Origin: Granulicella sp. S190
GTDB lineage: Bacteria; Acidobacteriota; Terriglobia; Terriglobales; Acidobacteriaceae
NCBI RefSeq assembly: GCF_009766095.1
Contig: NZ_LMUD01000009.1
Location: forward strand, 1 to 64,000
DNA: 64,000 nucleotides
Direction: 5' to 3'
Under the pieces are notes generated by a model. That model did no database searches and was not told the origin of the DNA. It saw nothing but the letters and a program-made list of their open reading frames with translations. The position numbers and the translations under genes were made by a program. The number at the start of each line of letters is the position of its first letter. Position 1 is the first letter of the stretch. This document shows, piece by piece, positions 40,813 through 46,180 of this stretch.

Positions 40813-41370
40813 ATGCCCTCAATTGAAAGTAACCAGCTACTGCTTGCCGCAGCAGCAGCCTGCGAAGACAAAAAAGCTGAGGACATTCGCATCCTGGCAC
40901 TGGATCCCGCGGAGAGCGGGCTGACAGACTATTTCCTGATCTGCAACGGAACGAATGACCGGCAGAATGTCGCCATCACCGATGAGGTTGAGATCCGCCT
41001 GAAGCGTGAGTTTGGGGTCTATCCCAACTCCGTCGAGGGACGGCGGCAGGGAGAGTGGATCTTGATGGACTATGTCGACTTCATCGTCCATGTGTTTTCT
41101 GCCGAGAAGCGGGCGTTTTATGGACTGGAGCGGCTGAGAAAGTCTGCGACGACGATCAGCGTGGCAGACCTGAATGCAGAAGTGAGTGCAAGGATCAAGG
41201 AGAGCCGCGCAAAGAAGGCTCCGAAGAAAACGCCTGCCAAGGCAGCGGCAAAGAAGGCTGTGACAAAGAAGGTGGCAGCAAAAGTAGCATCACCCAAGAA
41301 GGCAAGCGTGAAAAAGAGTGTGGTGAAAAAAGCAGCAAAGACACCGGCTCCGAAAACGAAGAAGAAATAG
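40813..41370 (+). CDS. rsfS: ribosome silencing factor RsfS with Lys/Ala-rich tail
   Basis: Residues about 1-115 form the RsfS (Iojap) domain, with DYFLICNGTNDRQ, GEWILMDYVDFIVHVF and ER. It binds L14 and keeps the 50S subunit from joining in poor growth. Residues about 128-185 are a low-complexity tail of Lys, Ala and Pro (KKAPKKTPAKAAAKKA and so on) like histone H1, not usual for RsfS (normally about 105-120 residues). The tail may add rRNA or DNA binding. rlmH follows after 25 bp. Confidence 0.93.
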   Translation: MPSIESNQLLLAAAAACEDKKAEDIRILALDPAESGLTDYFLICNGTNDRQNVAITDEVEIRLKREFGVYPNSVEGRRQGEWILMDYVDFIVHVFSAEKRAFYGLERLRKSATTISVADLNAEVSARIKESRAKKAPKKTPAKAAAKKAVTKKVAAKVASPKKASVKKSVVKKAAKTPAPKTKKK

Positions 41371-41395
41371 GCAACAGAAAGTACCTGTAGCCAAA

Positions 41396-41851
41396 ATGAA
41401 AGTCTCTCTTACTTCGATTGCAGCGCGACAATCAAAGTCGATCCGGGATGGATGGTCTTCGATTCTGGAGAACTACACCTCCCGCATCTCTCACTACTAT
41501 CCCTTCGATTCCGAGCTCTTCGACTCAGAGCGCGGCTTTCTGGACTGGCTGGAGCGGCAGACGGGCCGGACTCCGGCTTATGTGGTGCTGCTGGATAGCC
41601 GTGGGCTACAGCTGGACTCGGAGGAGTTTGCCGGACGCATTGGACGGCTTCGGGACGAGGGGACGCAGCGGATTGTGTTCGCCATCGGTCCCGCGGATGG
41701 GTGGTCGGACGGGGCACGGAAGCGCGCGAATCTGCTTCTCTCCCTGGGGCGTATGACGCTGCCTCATCAACTGGCACGGGTGGTGCTGGCAGAGCAGGTT
41801 TATCGAGCTTGTACTATCCTGGCGGGCCATCCCTACCACTCCGGCCACTAA
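41396..41851 (+). CDS. rlmH: 23S rRNA (pseudouridine1915-N3)-methyltransferase
   Basis: This 151-residue SPOUT-class enzyme methylates pseudouridine 1915 in helix 69 of 23S rRNA. Diagnostic parts are the SAM-binding FAIGPADGW and the C-terminal LAEQVYRACTILAGHPYH. YVVLLDSRGLQLDSEEFA is also typical. Length is normal (about 155). It lies 25 bp after rsfS, the usual order, so the two are probably cotranscribed. Confidence 0.96.
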   Translation: MKVSLTSIAARQSKSIRDGWSSILENYTSRISHYYPFDSELFDSERGFLDWLERQTGRTPAYVVLLDSRGLQLDSEEFAGRIGRLRDEGTQRIVFAIGPADGWSDGARKRANLLLSLGRMTLPHQLARVVLAEQVYRACTILAGHPYHSGH

Positions 41852-41874
41852 ACTATTAGGAATTTGCGGCCGGG

Positions 41875-42210
41875 TCAGTCGTCGATTCGAGCGTCTTTGG
41901 CTTTACGCGGCTTGGAGGTCATGGTTTCGGCGACGCACTTGTCGCTGACGCGCTGCGGGTTCGCGCACTTGCCTGCCGCGGCGCGGGTGAACGCACGGTA
42001 GAGCCGATCCACGTCCACTTGCCCTTTGCGTCCCTGCGCCTCGAGCGCGGAGTGCATGGCGGAGAGAAGCTCCGACCTGAGTTCGTGGAAGATCCTGTCG
42101 ATGTAGATATACGGCAAATTTTCCTCCGCGGCCTTGTGTCTCACGATACATGGGTGCGGAGAGGACACGGCGGGGGCAGGTTCAGCCGCTCTGGCTGTTG
42201 TGCCTGACAT
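41875..42210 (-). CDS. hypothetical protein
   Basis: A start at 42210 gives 111 residues; a longer start at 42255 is also possible and would overlap the leader of the first small-peptide gene. No ribosome site is clear at either. The central part (YIYIDRIFHELRSELLSAMHSALEAQGRKG) looks helical and the C-terminus is Lys/Arg-rich. No family is recognised. It converges with rlmH, 23 bp apart, and is divergent from the peptide locus. Confidence 0.45.
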   Translation of the reverse strand: MSGTTARAAEPAPAVSSPHPCIVRHKAAEENLPYIYIDRIFHELRSELLSAMHSALEAQGRKGQVDVDRLYRAFTRAAAGKCANPQRVSDKCVAETMTSKPRKAKDARIDD

Positions 42211-42257
42211 GGGATGAAGGAGAGGTTTTGTCTTGAAAAATCTACAGGATGACATAA

Positions 42258-42295
42258 CCTGCGAGAGCGCATCTTTGCGCATAAGGAGTTTTACT
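42258..42295 (+). promoter_or_regulatory. leader of peptide gene 1 with hairpin and strong ribosome site
   Basis: CCTGCGAGAGCGCATCTTTG is followed by CGC and an AAGGAG ribosome site (42283-42288). GCGCA (42267-42271) and TGCGC (42276-42280) form a 5-bp stem with a 4-base loop. Nearly the same leader precedes peptide gene 2, so it was duplicated with the gene and is probably functional. Confidence 0.6.
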
Positions 42296-42463
42296 TTGAA
42301 CAGGTCGATCCGTAACCTCGCGCTCTCAGTCGCCGTCCTCTTCTCTACAACCGCTCCATTGTTTGCGAACATGACGGGCGGGAATCCACATCCTCAGATT
42401 TCGTCGGCTGCTCTTTCGTTTGGCGATTATGCTGGCATCGTTATGTCCGTCTTCGGCCTGTAA
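42296..42463 (+). CDS. 55-residue secreted peptide, copy 1
   Basis: Starting with TTG at 42296, seven bases after AAGGAG, the product is 55 residues. It has a basic N-terminus (NRSIRN), a hydrophobic core (LALSVAVLFSTTAPLFA) and a likely signal-peptidase site near ANM. The mature peptide of about 30 residues reads MTGGNPHP, then LSFGDYAGIVMSVFGL. It is 38/55 identical to peptide 2, with conserved GG-PHP and GDYA-IV-SV-GL. A terminator lies 60 bp downstream, so it has its own transcript. I know of no named family. Confidence 0.75.
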   Translation: MNRSIRNLALSVAVLFSTTAPLFANMTGGNPHPQISSAALSFGDYAGIVMSVFGL

Positions 42464-42522
42464 AAATCACTACGGCCAAAGAGAAGAGAGACACAAAAGC
42501 ACTCCAGTATTAGAAAACTTGT

Positions 42523-42554
42523 GGCGGCGAGCCTTTGTGCTTCGCCGCCTTTTT
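42523..42554 (+). terminator. Rho-independent terminator after peptide gene 1
   Basis: GGCGGCGA (42523-42530) pairs perfectly with TCGCCGCC (42542-42549), followed by five T. It separates peptide gene 1 from peptide gene 2 and its downstream membrane genes. Confidence 0.8.
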
Positions 42555-42781
42555 CAGATGGCCGGTGTCTCCATCGAAAGCGCCCAGGTCTTTTCTTATA
42601 AGGCGAGTGCTTGATGCTCCTCTCGATGAGGATCTTCCGTTCTACTCTTGAGCACACTGAATTTACCTTGCCGGACGCCGATATAAGGGAACATGCGATT
42701 GTCGTCCATCCCACAATAGATAGAGCTTTTGTGGCATTTTCGTGCGTGTTTTTTACTCGAAAAGGGAGCAAAAGGCCTACG

Positions 42782-42819
42782 CTGTGAGAGCGCACCTTTG
42801 CGCCCATAGGAGCCTCCCC
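42782..42819 (+). promoter_or_regulatory. leader of peptide gene 2 with hairpin and ribosome site
   Basis: CTGTGAGAGCGCACCTTTGC is followed by GCC and ATAGGAG. GCGCA (42790-42794) and TGCGC (42799-42803) form the same 5-bp, 4-base-loop hairpin as in copy 1, with loop CCTT instead of TCTT. AGGAG lies seven bases before the ATG at 42820. Confidence 0.6.
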
Positions 42820-42987
42820 ATGAACAAGTCGATCCGTAATCTCGCGCTCACCGCCGCTGTCCTCTTCTCTACCGTTACCCCCATGTTCGCCAATATGTCT
42901 GGCGGTCTCCCACATCCTACGGTACTTTCCGTTTCTCTTTCCTTGGGTGATTACGCAAGTATCGTGCTATCCGTCTTAGGGCTGTAA
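42820..42987 (+). CDS. 55-residue secreted peptide, copy 2
   Basis: The ATG at 42820 gives MNKSIRNLALTAAVLFSTVTP, cut here, then MFANMSGG, LPHPTVLSVSL, SLGDYASIVLSVLGL. The signal-peptide-like first half is followed by a short mature part that shares GG-PHP and GDYA-IV-SV-GL with copy 1. Both are exactly 55 residues, and substitutions are conservative (K/R, T/S, V/I, L/F/M), which points to selection on the protein. It is 30 bp upstream of the 7-TM gene and probably in its operon. Its role is unknown; a signalling or membrane-active peptide is one possibility. Confidence 0.78.
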   Translation: MNKSIRNLALTAAVLFSTVTPMFANMSGGLPHPTVLSVSLSLGDYASIVLSVLGL

Positions 42988-43017
42988 GATCGTTCCGAAT
43001 ACGCCTTCGAGGCAGGA

Positions 43018-43794
43018 ATGAATTTCACGACGTTAGACAAAATCATATGGGCGGCAAACTTTATCGGGTTTGTCGCCCTACTGATCGTGCTGCTATGGCG
43101 ACGACGGTGGATCGGTTTCTCGATTTTCACCTGTTTTGTGGCGTTCATGACCTTTACTTCTATCGGAATGTTTCTAATCACGCATTACAGTTCAGCGAGA
43201 GTTTATCGATTTGGATATTGGTTCATCTACTACGGGGATGTTCTTTTCCAACTCGGCCTGATATTTGAGATTGCCCGAAATGTCTTGCGACCCACTGGCA
43301 CTTGGGTTCGCGATGCGCGCAGTTCGTTTGTGCTTGCCGGGATAGTAGGAACAGCAGTAGCTGTAGGACTCTGTCTAGCAATCAAGGCCCCACCGGGTTC
43401 AACTGCGGGGATCTGGGAGATTCGCGGAGATCTGTTTACGGCTCTATTGGATTGCGAGCTTTTTTTTGCGATGCTCTTTGCTTCGAACAGGTTAGGCTTG
43501 GAGTGGCGTAATCATGTTATGGCGCTGGCGCAAGGATTGACGGTTTGGGCGTTCGTTTCAGCAGTGAGCGACTTAGCCAGTATTTTCCTCGGCTGGACAC
43601 AGCAGTATCGAGTCGTTCAGCTTTTCCCGTCTTTTCTGTATGTTGCGGTGTTGCTGTATTGGATTTATGCGTTTTGGAAGCCGGAACGGGCTCGTGCGCC
43701 ACTTTCCGATGAGATGAAGAATTATCTCGTTGCGCTTCATAGCCGAGTGCAGTACGATCTTCAGCAGGTCACTCGCAGCCGAGATCAAGCGTAA
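43018..43794 (+). CDS. seven-transmembrane protein of unknown function
   Basis: The 258-residue product has about seven hydrophobic segments: near residues 9-28, 32-55, 64-86, 103-124, 140-160, 167-192 and 198-218. A soluble C-terminal tail of about 40 residues (PERARAPLSDEMKNYLVALHSRV, cut) follows. No enzymatic motif is visible; the layout recalls bacterial 7-TM sensing-type membrane proteins. GAGGCAGGA precedes the ATG at 43018. It lies 30 bp after peptide gene 2 and 5 bp before the next gene, so the three are probably cotranscribed. Confidence 0.75.
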   Translation: MNFTTLDKIIWAANFIGFVALLIVLLWRRRWIGFSIFTCFVAFMTFTSIGMFLITHYSSARVYRFGYWFIYYGDVLFQLGLIFEIARNVLRPTGTWVRDARSSFVLAGIVGTAVAVGLCLAIKAPPGSTAGIWEIRGDLFTALLDCELFFAMLFASNRLGLEWRNHVMALAQGLTVWAFVSAVSDLASIFLGWTQQYRVVQLFPSFLYVAVLLYWIYAFWKPERARAPLSDEMKNYLVALHSRVQYDLQQVTRSRDQA

Positions 43795-43799
43795 CCCCT

Positions 43800-44330
43800 A
43801 TGTTACCTATAGTCATTACCGCACTGGTTACTATTCTGTTAGGTTGTGCCCTTCTGCATTCCTATATAACGGCGAAACGTCTGGCCGCATGCACCTGGGA
43901 TGAGCTGGTAGCAAAGCTCCATCCTGTTGAGTCCAATGGCGTGATGACCGTGGCACTGAACCACCTTGTTCCAGAGAGAGATGCTCTCAACCTGGAACCG
44001 CAGAAGATGTGGATTCTGATGGGCGGTCTTGAAGGCGTGCAGCGGATGCGCGAGAACGGCCGGATCCTTGTCGCGCTTGCCTCCTACGTTGAACGGTGGA
44101 ACTTCGATGAAGGCATCATCATCGCCGAGCGTATGCGTCGCGATGGAATGCAACTGCGCCGCGCCGTGACCCGCATTATGCTGGCGACTTTCCTGGGCAG
44201 ACAGCGGATGCGTGTTCCGTTCTACCTGCAAGAAGTGGCCTCGTCGTATTACCTGATGCGTCAGCGGCTGTTGGTTCTGTATGAGACCAATCATGCCGGC
44301 CTCTACTCTCGTCTCGCCGAAGCGCTCTGA
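43800..44330 (+). CDS. membrane-anchored protein, partner of the 7-TM gene
   Basis: The 176-residue product has one N-terminal transmembrane segment (VITALVTILLGCALLHSYI), then an Arg/Leu-rich helical domain (EGVQRMRENGRILVALASYV and MRRDGMQLRRAVTRIMLATF). No family is recognised. It starts five bases after the 7-TM gene stop, strong evidence of a shared operon. The cytoplasmic helical domain could pass a signal or stabilise the 7-TM protein; this is inference. Confidence 0.7.
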   Translation: MLPIVITALVTILLGCALLHSYITAKRLAACTWDELVAKLHPVESNGVMTVALNHLVPERDALNLEPQKMWILMGGLEGVQRMRENGRILVALASYVERWNFDEGIIIAERMRRDGMQLRRAVTRIMLATFLGRQRMRVPFYLQEVASSYYLMRQRLLVLYETNHAGLYSRLAEAL

Positions 44331-44411
44331 GTCGAACTCAATCACCAACCCACCACGCATCCTGTTCAGTCGTTACAATGAATAGGGCCGTGGCCGAAAG
44401 GGTATGCAAGG

Positions 44412-45251
44412 ATGAGTTGGTTCAAGCGCGAAGATAACGAGATCGTAAACGACTCGGAGAAGACGGTTCGAACCGAAGGCCTGTGGATACGCTGCCCTGA
44501 CTGCGGCAAGATCCTATTCAAGGCTGAGCTTGAGGCTAACCAGCGGGTGTGCTGGCATTGTGGCCACCACTTTCGAATCGACGCCCGCACCCGAATCGAT
44601 AACCTTCTTGAACCGGGCTACGAACTGGTGGACCTGGAGCTTCGCTCAACCGATCCGCTGAACTTTACCGATCTGAAGCCCTACAAACGCCGACTTGCCG
44701 AGGCCCAGAAAAAGACTGGCCTGAACGACGCGATCATCAATGCTGTGGGGCAGCTTGGGACGCATAACGTCGTGTTGAGCGTGATGGAGTATGGGTTTAT
44801 CGGGGGAAGTATGGGCGCGGTTGTGGGGGAGACGATCGCACGCGCGGTGGATCGGTCGCTGGCCACGCGGCATCCGCTGATTATCGTTGCGGCCTCCGGG
44901 GGAGCGCGCATGATGGAGGGCATCGCTTCGCTGATGCAGCTGGCGAAGGTTTCGGCAGGCCTGGCGAGGATGGATGACGCAAAAATTCCTTATATCTCCG
45001 TGATGACGGATCCCACGACGGGTGGCGTCACCGCGAGTTTTGCGATGCTGGGAGACCTGAATATAGCGGAGCCCGGTGCACTGATTGGCTTTGCCGGTCC
45101 TCGGGTGATTGAACAGACGATACGGCAGAAGCTTCCGGAGGGCTTTCAGCGCTCTGAGTTTCTGCTGGAGCATGGGTTTCTCGATGCTATCGTCCCGCGC
45201 AAAGAGATGAAGCAGTACCTTTCTCAGGCGCTTAGCTGGATGGGTGCTTAG
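44412..45251 (+). CDS. accD: acetyl-CoA carboxylase carboxyltransferase subunit beta
   Basis: The 279-residue protein is the carboxyltransferase beta subunit that, with AccA, moves CO2 from biotin to acetyl-CoA for fatty-acid synthesis. An N-terminal zinc ribbon carries Cys28, Cys31, Cys47 and Cys50 (CPDC and CWHC). Acyl-CoA-binding segments include GGSMGAVVGE, ASGGARMMEG and PTTGGVTASFAMLGD. Length and order are normal. folC, a common neighbour of accD, is not present. Confidence 0.97.
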   Translation: MSWFKREDNEIVNDSEKTVRTEGLWIRCPDCGKILFKAELEANQRVCWHCGHHFRIDARTRIDNLLEPGYELVDLELRSTDPLNFTDLKPYKRRLAEAQKKTGLNDAIINAVGQLGTHNVVLSVMEYGFIGGSMGAVVGETIARAVDRSLATRHPLIIVAASGGARMMEGIASLMQLAKVSAGLARMDDAKIPYISVMTDPTTGGVTASFAMLGDLNIAEPGALIGFAGPRVIEQTIRQKLPEGFQRSEFLLEHGFLDAIVPRKEMKQYLSQALSWMGA

Positions 45252-45322
45252 AAGCTTCACCCGTAAGAAGATGCGAACAAGATCGTTCGCTCAGCGACAG
45301 TTGATGCCATTAAACTTTAGGG

Positions 45323-46180
45323 GTGCAATCAGCGAGTCCATCACGTACCGCACTTCGTGTAGCCCTTCGACGCGCGGCACACCAGCTCTATGACGCTAAG
45401 CCTCTCGTCTTTGAAGACCCTATCGCTGTTCCTATTCTAGGGAAGGACTACGCGGAGGATCTGAGCCGTACGCCGGGCCGCAGTCTCGGTGGAAAGGAGC
45501 GGCCGTTTTCTATTGGCTTGCGCGCCTTTCTTGTGGCACGCAGTCGCTACGCCGAAGACATTCTCGCTGGCGCTGTGGCCGCTGGTGTTCGACAGTATGT
45601 TTTGCTTGGCGCGGGCCTGGACACGTTCGCCCATCGCAATCCCTATCCTCAGCTTCACGTCTTCGAGGTGGATCATCCCGCAACGCAGCAGTGGAAGCAG
45701 GAGCTTATGGAAGGTGCCAGCCTGGCTACCCCGGAGAAGGTGGCCTATGTTCCGGTGAACTTCGAAGAGCAGTCACTCTCTACCCAACTACAGGCTGCCG
45801 GATTCGATTCGCTGGTGCCCACGGTCTTCGCATGGTTGGGAGTAGTCCCGTATCTTACGCTCGAGGCGTTTCGTGGCACGATTGCCTTTGTCTCCCGCCA
45901 GGCCGCCGGGAGTGCCGTGGTTCTGGACTACGCTCAACCTCGCTCTGTTCTGCCGTTCTTTGAACAACTGGCCCACGACTCGCTTGCTTCGCGAGTTCAA
46001 CAGGCTGGGGAGCCATTTCAGCTCTTCTTCACACCCGCTGAGATTGCGGGTGAGCTCAGGAACTTTCGCGCAATTGAAGATTTGGGTTCTACTGAGATCA
46101 ATACCCGCTACTTTACTGACCGCGCCGATTCGCTGAGGGTTCTGGGCAGCGCGGGCCGGCTGTTGAGTGCCTGGATTTAA
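45323..46180 (+). CDS. LCM-type class I SAM-dependent methyltransferase (TIGR00027-like)
   Basis: The 285-residue protein starts with GTG at 45323. It carries the motifs of the leucine carboxyl methyltransferase-like family: an N-terminal SRTALRVALRRAAH, RSRYAED, VLLGAGLDTFAHR as SAM-binding motif I, and VFEVDHPATQQWK as motif II. Family members include PpmT-like enzymes and polyketide-associated methyltransferases; the substrate is not predictable. A later VPTVFAWLGVVPYLT follows the usual LCM pattern. Confidence 0.85.
   Translation: MQSASPSRTALRVALRRAAHQLYDAKPLVFEDPIAVPILGKDYAEDLSRTPGRSLGGKERPFSIGLRAFLVARSRYAEDILAGAVAAGVRQYVLLGAGLDTFAHRNPYPQLHVFEVDHPATQQWKQELMEGASLATPEKVAYVPVNFEEQSLSTQLQAAGFDSLVPTVFAWLGVVPYLTLEAFRGTIAFVSRQAAGSAVVLDYAQPRSVLPFFEQLAHDSLASRVQQAGEPFQLFFTPAEIAGELRNFRAIEDLGSTEINTRYFTDRADSLRVLGSAGRLLSAWI

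Follow-up and report, generated by a model that had tools for sequence, protein, structure and literature searches.

What purpose is served by two genes for similar small peptides, each with a signal-peptide-like half, placed in front of a gene for a seven-transmembrane (7-TM) protein and a gene for a membrane-anchored partner? This arrangement is found on contig NZ_LMUD01000009.1 of Granulicella sp. S190 (Acidobacteriaceae), within the stretch of 64,000 nucleotides that we analysed as a whole (positions 1 to 64,000, here called the window). The locus is one case of a family-wide module. The module recurs, its peptide precursors carry secretion signals, repeat units within many of these precursors are under selection, and the outer half of the 7-TM protein is more variable than the inner half. 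We lean, at somewhat better than even chances, towards a reading in which the module comprises secreted peptide ligands, dedicated 7-TM receptors and a cytosolic transducer, so that the peptides would be released, bind the 7-TM protein and elicit an output through the partner.

Relatives of the 7-TM protein are present in 193 of 299 genomes of the family (single-sequence search, E≤1e-3) and in 179 of 200 genomes of the order (27-row profile, E≤1e-5), with up to 10 matches per genome in the order sample. Among those listed of the 21 order genomes without a match, 7 belong to the same family and 13 to the sister family f84, in which none of the 13 listed genomes has a relative; G652 is the only listed genome of the genus without any match. 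In the sample of the phylum 43 of 347 genomes match, 37 of them from Acidobacteriaceae and six, weakly, from elsewhere. The closest named relatives are from Edaphobacter (best 82%).

The neighbourhoods of L032-L130 were inspected with a script as well as visually, and we looked upstream of each 7-TM gene for a short open reading frame (ORF) of 30-430 aa with a Shine–Dalgarno sequence (SD), a net positive n-region, a hydrophobic stretch and a small-residue cleavage-like site, ending between 200 bp upstream and 30 bp past the 7-TM start. Such an ORF, with a Sec-type signal, lies just 5′ of 76 out of 90 distinct 7-TM genes having at least 350 bp of upstream DNA, compared with 8 out of 270 control ORFs of 200 aa or more taken from the same fetched DNA. 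As the controls omit hydrophobic proteins but count in spurious antisense ORFs, they provide only a rough background. G..[DN]P.P as a motif accompanies 47 of the 90 genes and none of the 270 controls, and the gene order peptide, 7-TM, partner recurs in many genera. A sequence-only reading of the window had offered, as one possibility, a secreted peptide encoded together with a membrane protein that serves as its receptor or exporter; absence of the signal half from relatives, or their occurrence away from the 7-TM gene in all genomes, was named as what would speak against this. The signal half and the adjacency are both kept across the family, which supports the suggestion.

At least 25 of the upstream ORFs are arrays, each of 2 to 24 near-identical units with few variants: ten VTGSDPMPKSKGGL units in ZG23-2 (L043), eleven GITGSDPRPPKSSVVVA units in L069, seven FPMGTNPLPRV units in Acidipila rosea (L038), eleven FGPGGGMPSPIGQTGLIA units in L055, 24 EGPAGTVRNPWGSVA units in L080, 19 GPMTPAPTPPGPTFA units in L111 and 16 GPTLPMPNPKDIHFVAEN units in L129. 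We compared units within each precursor, accepting those with at least 60% identity to a seed. Both the seeds and the borders of the units were picked visually, and one of the 26 seeds tried, that of L097, yielded a single unit and was excluded. The proportion of synonymous differences (pS) exceeded that of non-synonymous differences (pN) in 25 out of 25 precursors; pooled over the 180 units, pS was 0.388, pN 0.0191 and pN/pS 0.049. This indicates that the repeat units are translated and selected as peptides, and a signal peptide followed by repeated, near-identical, selected units is thus found in 25 relatives. Being short, close to the next gene and preceded by a conserved hairpin before the SD, the ORFs could be taken for leader ORFs that set expression of the 7-TM gene, or for non-coding artefacts. 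We reject this explanation, which is hardly credible given the purifying selection on the encoded units, the retention of signal sequences, a precursor ORF of 408 aa and a pN well below pS in the window peptides. Two of seven array precursors passed family cut-offs (PF17724 in L072, PF12788 in L129), which are probably repeat artefacts. PF17724 was rejected as a name for the precursors, having no match in 11 genomes or 14 controls, although such a result does not show absence.

Some loci have tandem peptide genes instead of arrays. In the window whole genes are duplicated rather than repeat units; L050 (TAA 166) has five such genes, and L070 and L086 have two each. L076 has three, as well as a fourth that an unread base interrupts. 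The commonest core, G-x-[DN]-P-x-P, fits 46 of 62 hand-picked cores; the first Pro occurs in 62 and the second in 60 of the 62, partly as an effect of aligning the cores on P-x-P. One genome, G141, has four loci (L086, L091, L092 and L096) with four different cores. Cores such as GPGDPSPIGH (L042, L052) may resemble the motifs of plant CEP/CLE peptides, a likeness on which we do not build.

Ala often directly precedes both the first unit, at the signal-peptide junction, and later units (though not in every array), which hints at one kind of cut; the unit borders looked at contain no dibasic pair. These junctions bear on an explanation that we consider unlikely, namely that the peptide stays in the cell and reports envelope secretion or protease activity to the cell's own 7-TM protein. 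Units following Ala resemble the products of signal-peptidase sites, Sec signals lead just to the periplasm, and genes for M13 (neprilysin-type) peptidases lie upstream of and beside the module at two loci (L045:2565-4499 and L046:2434-4503). By itself, however, such periplasmic self-sensing leaves unexplained the diversification of the pairs and the presence of up to 10 paralogues in a genome.

Are the two peptides of the window themselves coding? Between six copies, two in the window and four from named Edaphobacter contigs, pS was 0.16-0.62 and pN 0.02-0.20; in five comparisons with L033, pN was 0.22-0.28 in the mature part versus 0.00-0.11 in the signal part. A search of their own genome gave convincing matches to these two copies only; two more rows appeared at E 0.7-0.8. 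Peptide 2 is matched in 20 of the 299 family-sample genomes at E≤0.1, and at least 11 of these matches are convincing (the genome itself, six others of the genus, G129, G099, G133 and G047); in the last four the match sits immediately 5′ of a 7-TM gene. Neither peptide has a Pfam match, and the single NCBIfam match was far under the cut-off. The pattern of pN and pS, the matches within the genus and the fact that a secreted ORF is usual 5′ of the 7-TM family show that the window peptides exceed chance. The core of peptide 1 is the same, in all 10 residues, in relative L035; that of peptide 2 differs from the cores of relatives.

The layout given by the sequence-only reading holds up. Reading of the sequence and the ORF listing confirm two 55-residue peptide genes whose products share 38 of 55 residues, both with GG-PHP and GDYA-IV-SV-GL, and the coordinates (Table 1) give the 30 bp between peptide 2 and the 7-TM gene and the 5 bp between the latter and its partner. 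The terminator claimed between the peptide genes is real as a fold (a stem at 42523-42549 followed by UUUUU; −18.9 kcal/mol, z −2.7); a consensus scan of 41800-44500 with a loop limit of 3-8 nt listed neither a terminator nor a promoter. The shared leaders are likewise real, each with a GCGCA...TGCGC hairpin just 5′ of the SD that shows compensatory changes in relatives. A TA[CG]NCT motif, chosen by eye, lies 20-70 nt before the start in 48 of 62 peptide leaders (shuffled rate 0.096), and a hairpin of the GCGCA..TGCGC type stands between it and the SD in most peptide leaders, including among L032-L106. In 49 leaders (48 selected for TAnnCT, plus that of peptide 1) the six-pair helix has both-side changes at five pairs. 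Paired cells (84%), double-changed cells and the covariation score were all above 500 of 500 shuffles; the number of pair types was not (137 of 500 shuffles reach the same value). The element may be read as a promoter followed by a 5′ RNA hairpin. In its own genome the leader model matches the leaders of peptide 1 (E 0.0097) and peptide 2 (E 3.6e-5). A wider regulon of the hairpin was rejected, as only these two matches are convincing; three further matches (E 0.18-0.61) begin no signal-bearing ORF nearby. Rfam gave nothing at E≤1 in 41000-46000.

The module is flanked on its 5′ side by a gene for a SPOUT methyltransferase and on its 3′ side by genes for a carboxyl-transferase (which we take to be accD-like) and an LCM-family methyltransferase. 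Beside peptide 1, a possible divergent gene of about 111 aa without Pfam match lies on the minus strand (41875-42210); frames resembling it seem to be present upstream in the Edaphobacter relatives.

Table 1. Features of the peptide/7-TM module in the window, and the ORFs upstream of the second 7-TM gene of the same genome
Feature	Position	Strand	Description
Peptide 1	42296-42463	+	55 aa, start codon TTG; a signal peptide, a core (NMTGGNPHPQ) and a hydrophobic tail
Peptide 2	42820-42987	+	55 aa, ATG start; core NMSGGLPHPT
7-TM protein	43018-43794	+	258 aa; predicted N-out/C-in, GPCR-like predicted arrangement
Partner	43800-44330	+	176 aa; predicted to have a single TM helix at the N terminus and a helical domain in the cytosol
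Leader of peptide 1	42255-42295	+	TAACCT (putatively −10-like), GCGCA-loop-TGCGC hairpin 42267-42280, SD
Leader of peptide 2	42778-42819	+	TACGCT, GCGCA-loop-TGCGC hairpin 42790-42803, SD
Hairpin followed by a U run, resembling an intrinsic terminator, between the peptide genes	42523-42554	+	
ORFs upstream of second 7-TM (L131)	G000:C16:149522-150208		conserved Cys pair; no partner gene

We modelled the 7-TM protein with AlphaFold2 (AF2). The model has seven long helices and a C-terminal helix (predicted local distance difference test, pLDDT, 79.7; predicted template-modelling score, pTM, 0.72). Of the 122 inner sites 12 carry Lys or Arg, as against 6 of the 108 outer ones, which makes a topology with the N terminus outside and the C terminus inside likely; 38 residues follow TM7. 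Model and charge distribution together thus predict seven transmembrane helices in that orientation. Across 62 loci, variability within the bundle is greater in the outer half (2.33 bits) than in the inner half (1.81 bits; p 1e-5), and the least variable parts are cytosolic loops 3 (1.18 bits) and 2 (1.37 bits). With VIA-align the 50 best-listed structures are all G protein-coupled receptors (GPCRs) or LYCHOS, 48 by their titles and two (6meo_B and 7f83_A) presumably so, with Z 10.9-13.9 over 177-204 residues; 13 entries are LYCHOS, including the best (Z 13.9, root-mean-square deviation 3.7, 191 residues). The model is suggestive of a GPCR-like arrangement, short of membership among GPCRs.

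As the sequence-only reading had supposed, no named family in the libraries searched covers the 7-TM protein or its partner. We used two 7-TM alignments, A1 (20 rows, closer members) and A3 (27 rows, diverse members). No Pfam family matched the A3 members at E≤0.01, no 7tm family was among the weak matches of the A1 members, no family was matched by more than 2 of the 20 or 1 of the 27 (all weakly), and no PDB chain was related by the A1 profile at E≤1. PF00689 (1 of 20 members, 1.3e-4) and PF12750 (2 of 20, best 0.011) gave weak matches, and none of the A3 members matched either at 0.01. Pfam scans found no histidine kinase domain on the 7-TM protein.

Could the 7-TM protein and its partner export, process or modify the peptide rather than sense it? 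Their genes adjoin that of the peptide, and among 33 neighbourhoods neither an exporter nor a protease is a widely shared neighbour. However, the precursors already have Sec-type signals, the wide alignment is invariant only at M1, F37, Y63 and G173, with no catalytic set, and the predicted arrangement resembles receptors (weakly so by Foldseek), so that a role in export or processing is quite unlikely. We favour a receptor over an exporter because of the predicted N-out/C-in topology, the more variable outer half, the GPCR-like prediction and the lack of an invariant catalytic set.

We compared distances between peptide cores (13 residues, aligned on P-x-P) with those between halves of the 7-TM bundle. 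With the inner half controlled for, core distance correlated with that of the outer half (partial r 0.413, p 0.0005, 62 loci), and did so again when L052 was dropped (partial r 0.416, p 0.001, 61 rows); with the inner half given the outer, partial r was 0.057 and 0.075 (p 0.16 and 0.11). Within the genus, the outer half had a higher pN than the inner half in 8 of 10 pairs, by a small margin in most, and partner pN was below 7-TM pN in 10 of 10. Peptide-specific pairing and diversification are also compatible with immunity, as in a bacteriocin-like system whose peptides are secreted antagonists and whose 7-TM protein, with its partner, is the immunity protein matching the peptide; the hydrophobic C-terminal tails of single-copy precursors fit this too. 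Nevertheless, such a system is improbable: the units are Gly/Pro-rich and present in many near-identical copies, immunity does not require that cytosolic loops 2 and 3 be the least variable or that the partner change less than the 7-TM protein, and none of seven proteins had a PADLOC match.

The AF2 model of the partner (pLDDT 87.6) has one transmembrane helix and a helical cytosolic bundle. Fold comparison gave generic helical bundles only (Z up to 9.0), and no family or tetratricopeptide repeat (TPR) match was found; the best PDB sequence match, prolyl aminopeptidase (E 0.067), we took as chance. Four Edaphobacter rows are 88-89% identical to the window protein, L036 is 68% and the remaining 14 rows are 41-48% identical to it, and the partner profile matches 9 of 31 relatives, all of the genus. 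In the 33 neighbourhoods ORFs of the 7-TM family are linked in 31 and those of the partner family in 23; the next shared families are aldo/keto reductases (9) and one without Pfam match (6). Extra neighbours were rejected as output genes, since none is widely shared: the nine aldo/keto reductase genes (L112:5330-6313, L126:1083-2084 and seven more; two of the nine Pfam-checked) all belong to the L111-L130 group. The second 7-TM gene of the same genome (L131) is preceded by three tandem small secreted ORFs ending CPPNDPNACG, and L134 and L146 likewise have three before a 7-TM gene of this second subfamily. Carriage by phages was rejected, with no match in phage records, nor in viral contigs by two short patterns. 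Two plasmid records contain a relative, annotated as hypothetical proteins, both of Acidisarcina polymorpha (L156 on pACPOL3 and L157 on pACPOL1). On pACPOL3 a gene with sigma-70 region 4 lies upstream of the module on the opposite strand.

We propose the following mechanism for a ligand–receptor module. A precursor made from the peptide gene would be exported by the Sec route, given its conserved signal sequence, and trimmed by envelope proteases, leaving a short peptide that is rich in Gly and Pro and has G-x-[DN]-P-x-P as its core; the repeat units, and the Ala often found before the first and later ones, point to trimming. The peptide would bind the outer face of the adjoining 7-TM protein, a candidate standalone receptor with a GPCR-like helix arrangement, whose conserved loops on the cytosolic side may relay the signal to the helical partner tethered to the membrane, and the partner would act on a target of its own. 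We infer export, maturation, binding, signalling through the partner and action between cells. As different loci carry different peptide/7-TM pairs, one genome could run several channels. In the window, two peptides, each with a leader of its own, would serve a single 7-TM protein; the distal peptide retains the core of a relative, and the proximal one has changed.

Several observations weigh against this proposal. Fourteen of the 90 7-TM genes lack an upstream ORF satisfying our rule. Six of them (L037, L044, L084, L088, L092 and L129) have a peptide by eye, farther upstream or narrowly failing, and three (L041, L125 and L127) have less than 600 bp of upstream DNA; five have no convincing peptide (L103, L104, L115, L128, and L119 with a weak 39-aa candidate). 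The second 7-TM subfamily, with a longer cytosolic tail, has no partner, and L142-L144, from other families of the phylum, have a weakly related 7-TM gene and a short membrane-anchored gene with no evident peptide; the ancestral 7-TM protein may thus sense something else. The cytosolic C-terminal region of the 7-TM protein is variable (2.35 bits), and no output gene was found in the neighbourhoods. Foldseek gave no significant match for the 7-TM protein (best E 0.26; top rows a cytochrome oxidase subunit, then rhodopsins and GPCRs), the VIA-align list re-ranks Foldseek's own candidates from a PDB in which GPCRs abound, and among helical bundles a Z of about 13 can reflect an arrangement that many of them share. 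As for co-divergence, the cores were picked by eye, the outer/inner contrast shrinks to 0.335 versus 0.234 (both p 0.001) with rate-matched sites, and signal-peptide distance also correlates with the outer (0.207) and inner (0.276) halves.

A broader claim, that many orthogonal pairs of secreted peptide and standalone GPCR-like 7-TM protein, with a membrane-tethered transducer, have diversified across Acidobacteriaceae as a bacterial peptide-hormone system, we hold to be possible at a little under even chances. Were this so, peptide/7-TM pairs would be a means of communication in an abundant soil family, through an architecture named in no library searched, and bacteria would possess a standalone GPCR-like peptide receptor. 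The module would then offer natural pairs of ligand and receptor, and a directly testable system of short peptides open to synthesis, with candidate receptors known from the adjoining genes, in organisms that have received little study as regards signalling. We found no publication on such a module in the literature within reach of our search, which excluded most subscription journals and the majority of preprints.

How does the module compare with known systems? Agr and Com peptide quorum sensing uses HPK10 receptor kinases (AgrC-ComD). There, too, a small peptide gene lies beside that of a polytopic membrane protein and the pairs diversify; in contrast, we found no histidine kinase on the 7-TM protein and no exporter as a shared neighbour, and the module has a Sec-type signal and, at many loci, repeated units. 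RRNPP systems likewise have a propeptide with Sec-type export encoded beside its receptor gene; their receptors are TPR regulators of the cytosol, whereas here the neighbour is a 7-TM membrane protein and the partner has no TPR match. Multi-core precursors of ribosomally synthesized and post-translationally modified peptides (RiPPs) hold several near-identical cores in one ribosomal precursor, as do those of the module, in which, however, a Sec-type signal replaces the RiPP leader and no modification enzyme was seen as a widely shared neighbour in the 33 neighbourhoods. In the fungal alpha-factor type of mating pheromone, a multi-copy secreted precursor is paired with a GPCR, and the module resembles it in having a precursor with several copies of a short peptide and an N-out 7-TM protein as candidate receptor. 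Unlike the fungal system, the module is bacterial, its 7-TM gene adjoins the peptide gene, its unit borders are often Ala with no dibasic pair in the arrays looked at, its 7-TM protein has no sequence match to a 7tm family, and its partner is helical and membrane-anchored with no match to a G protein. On the broader claim, the diversification of pairs across Acidobacteriaceae would be akin to that of eukaryotic pheromone and neuropeptide receptors, and the module has the look of a bacterial counterpart, so far undescribed, to signalling by hormones and their receptors.

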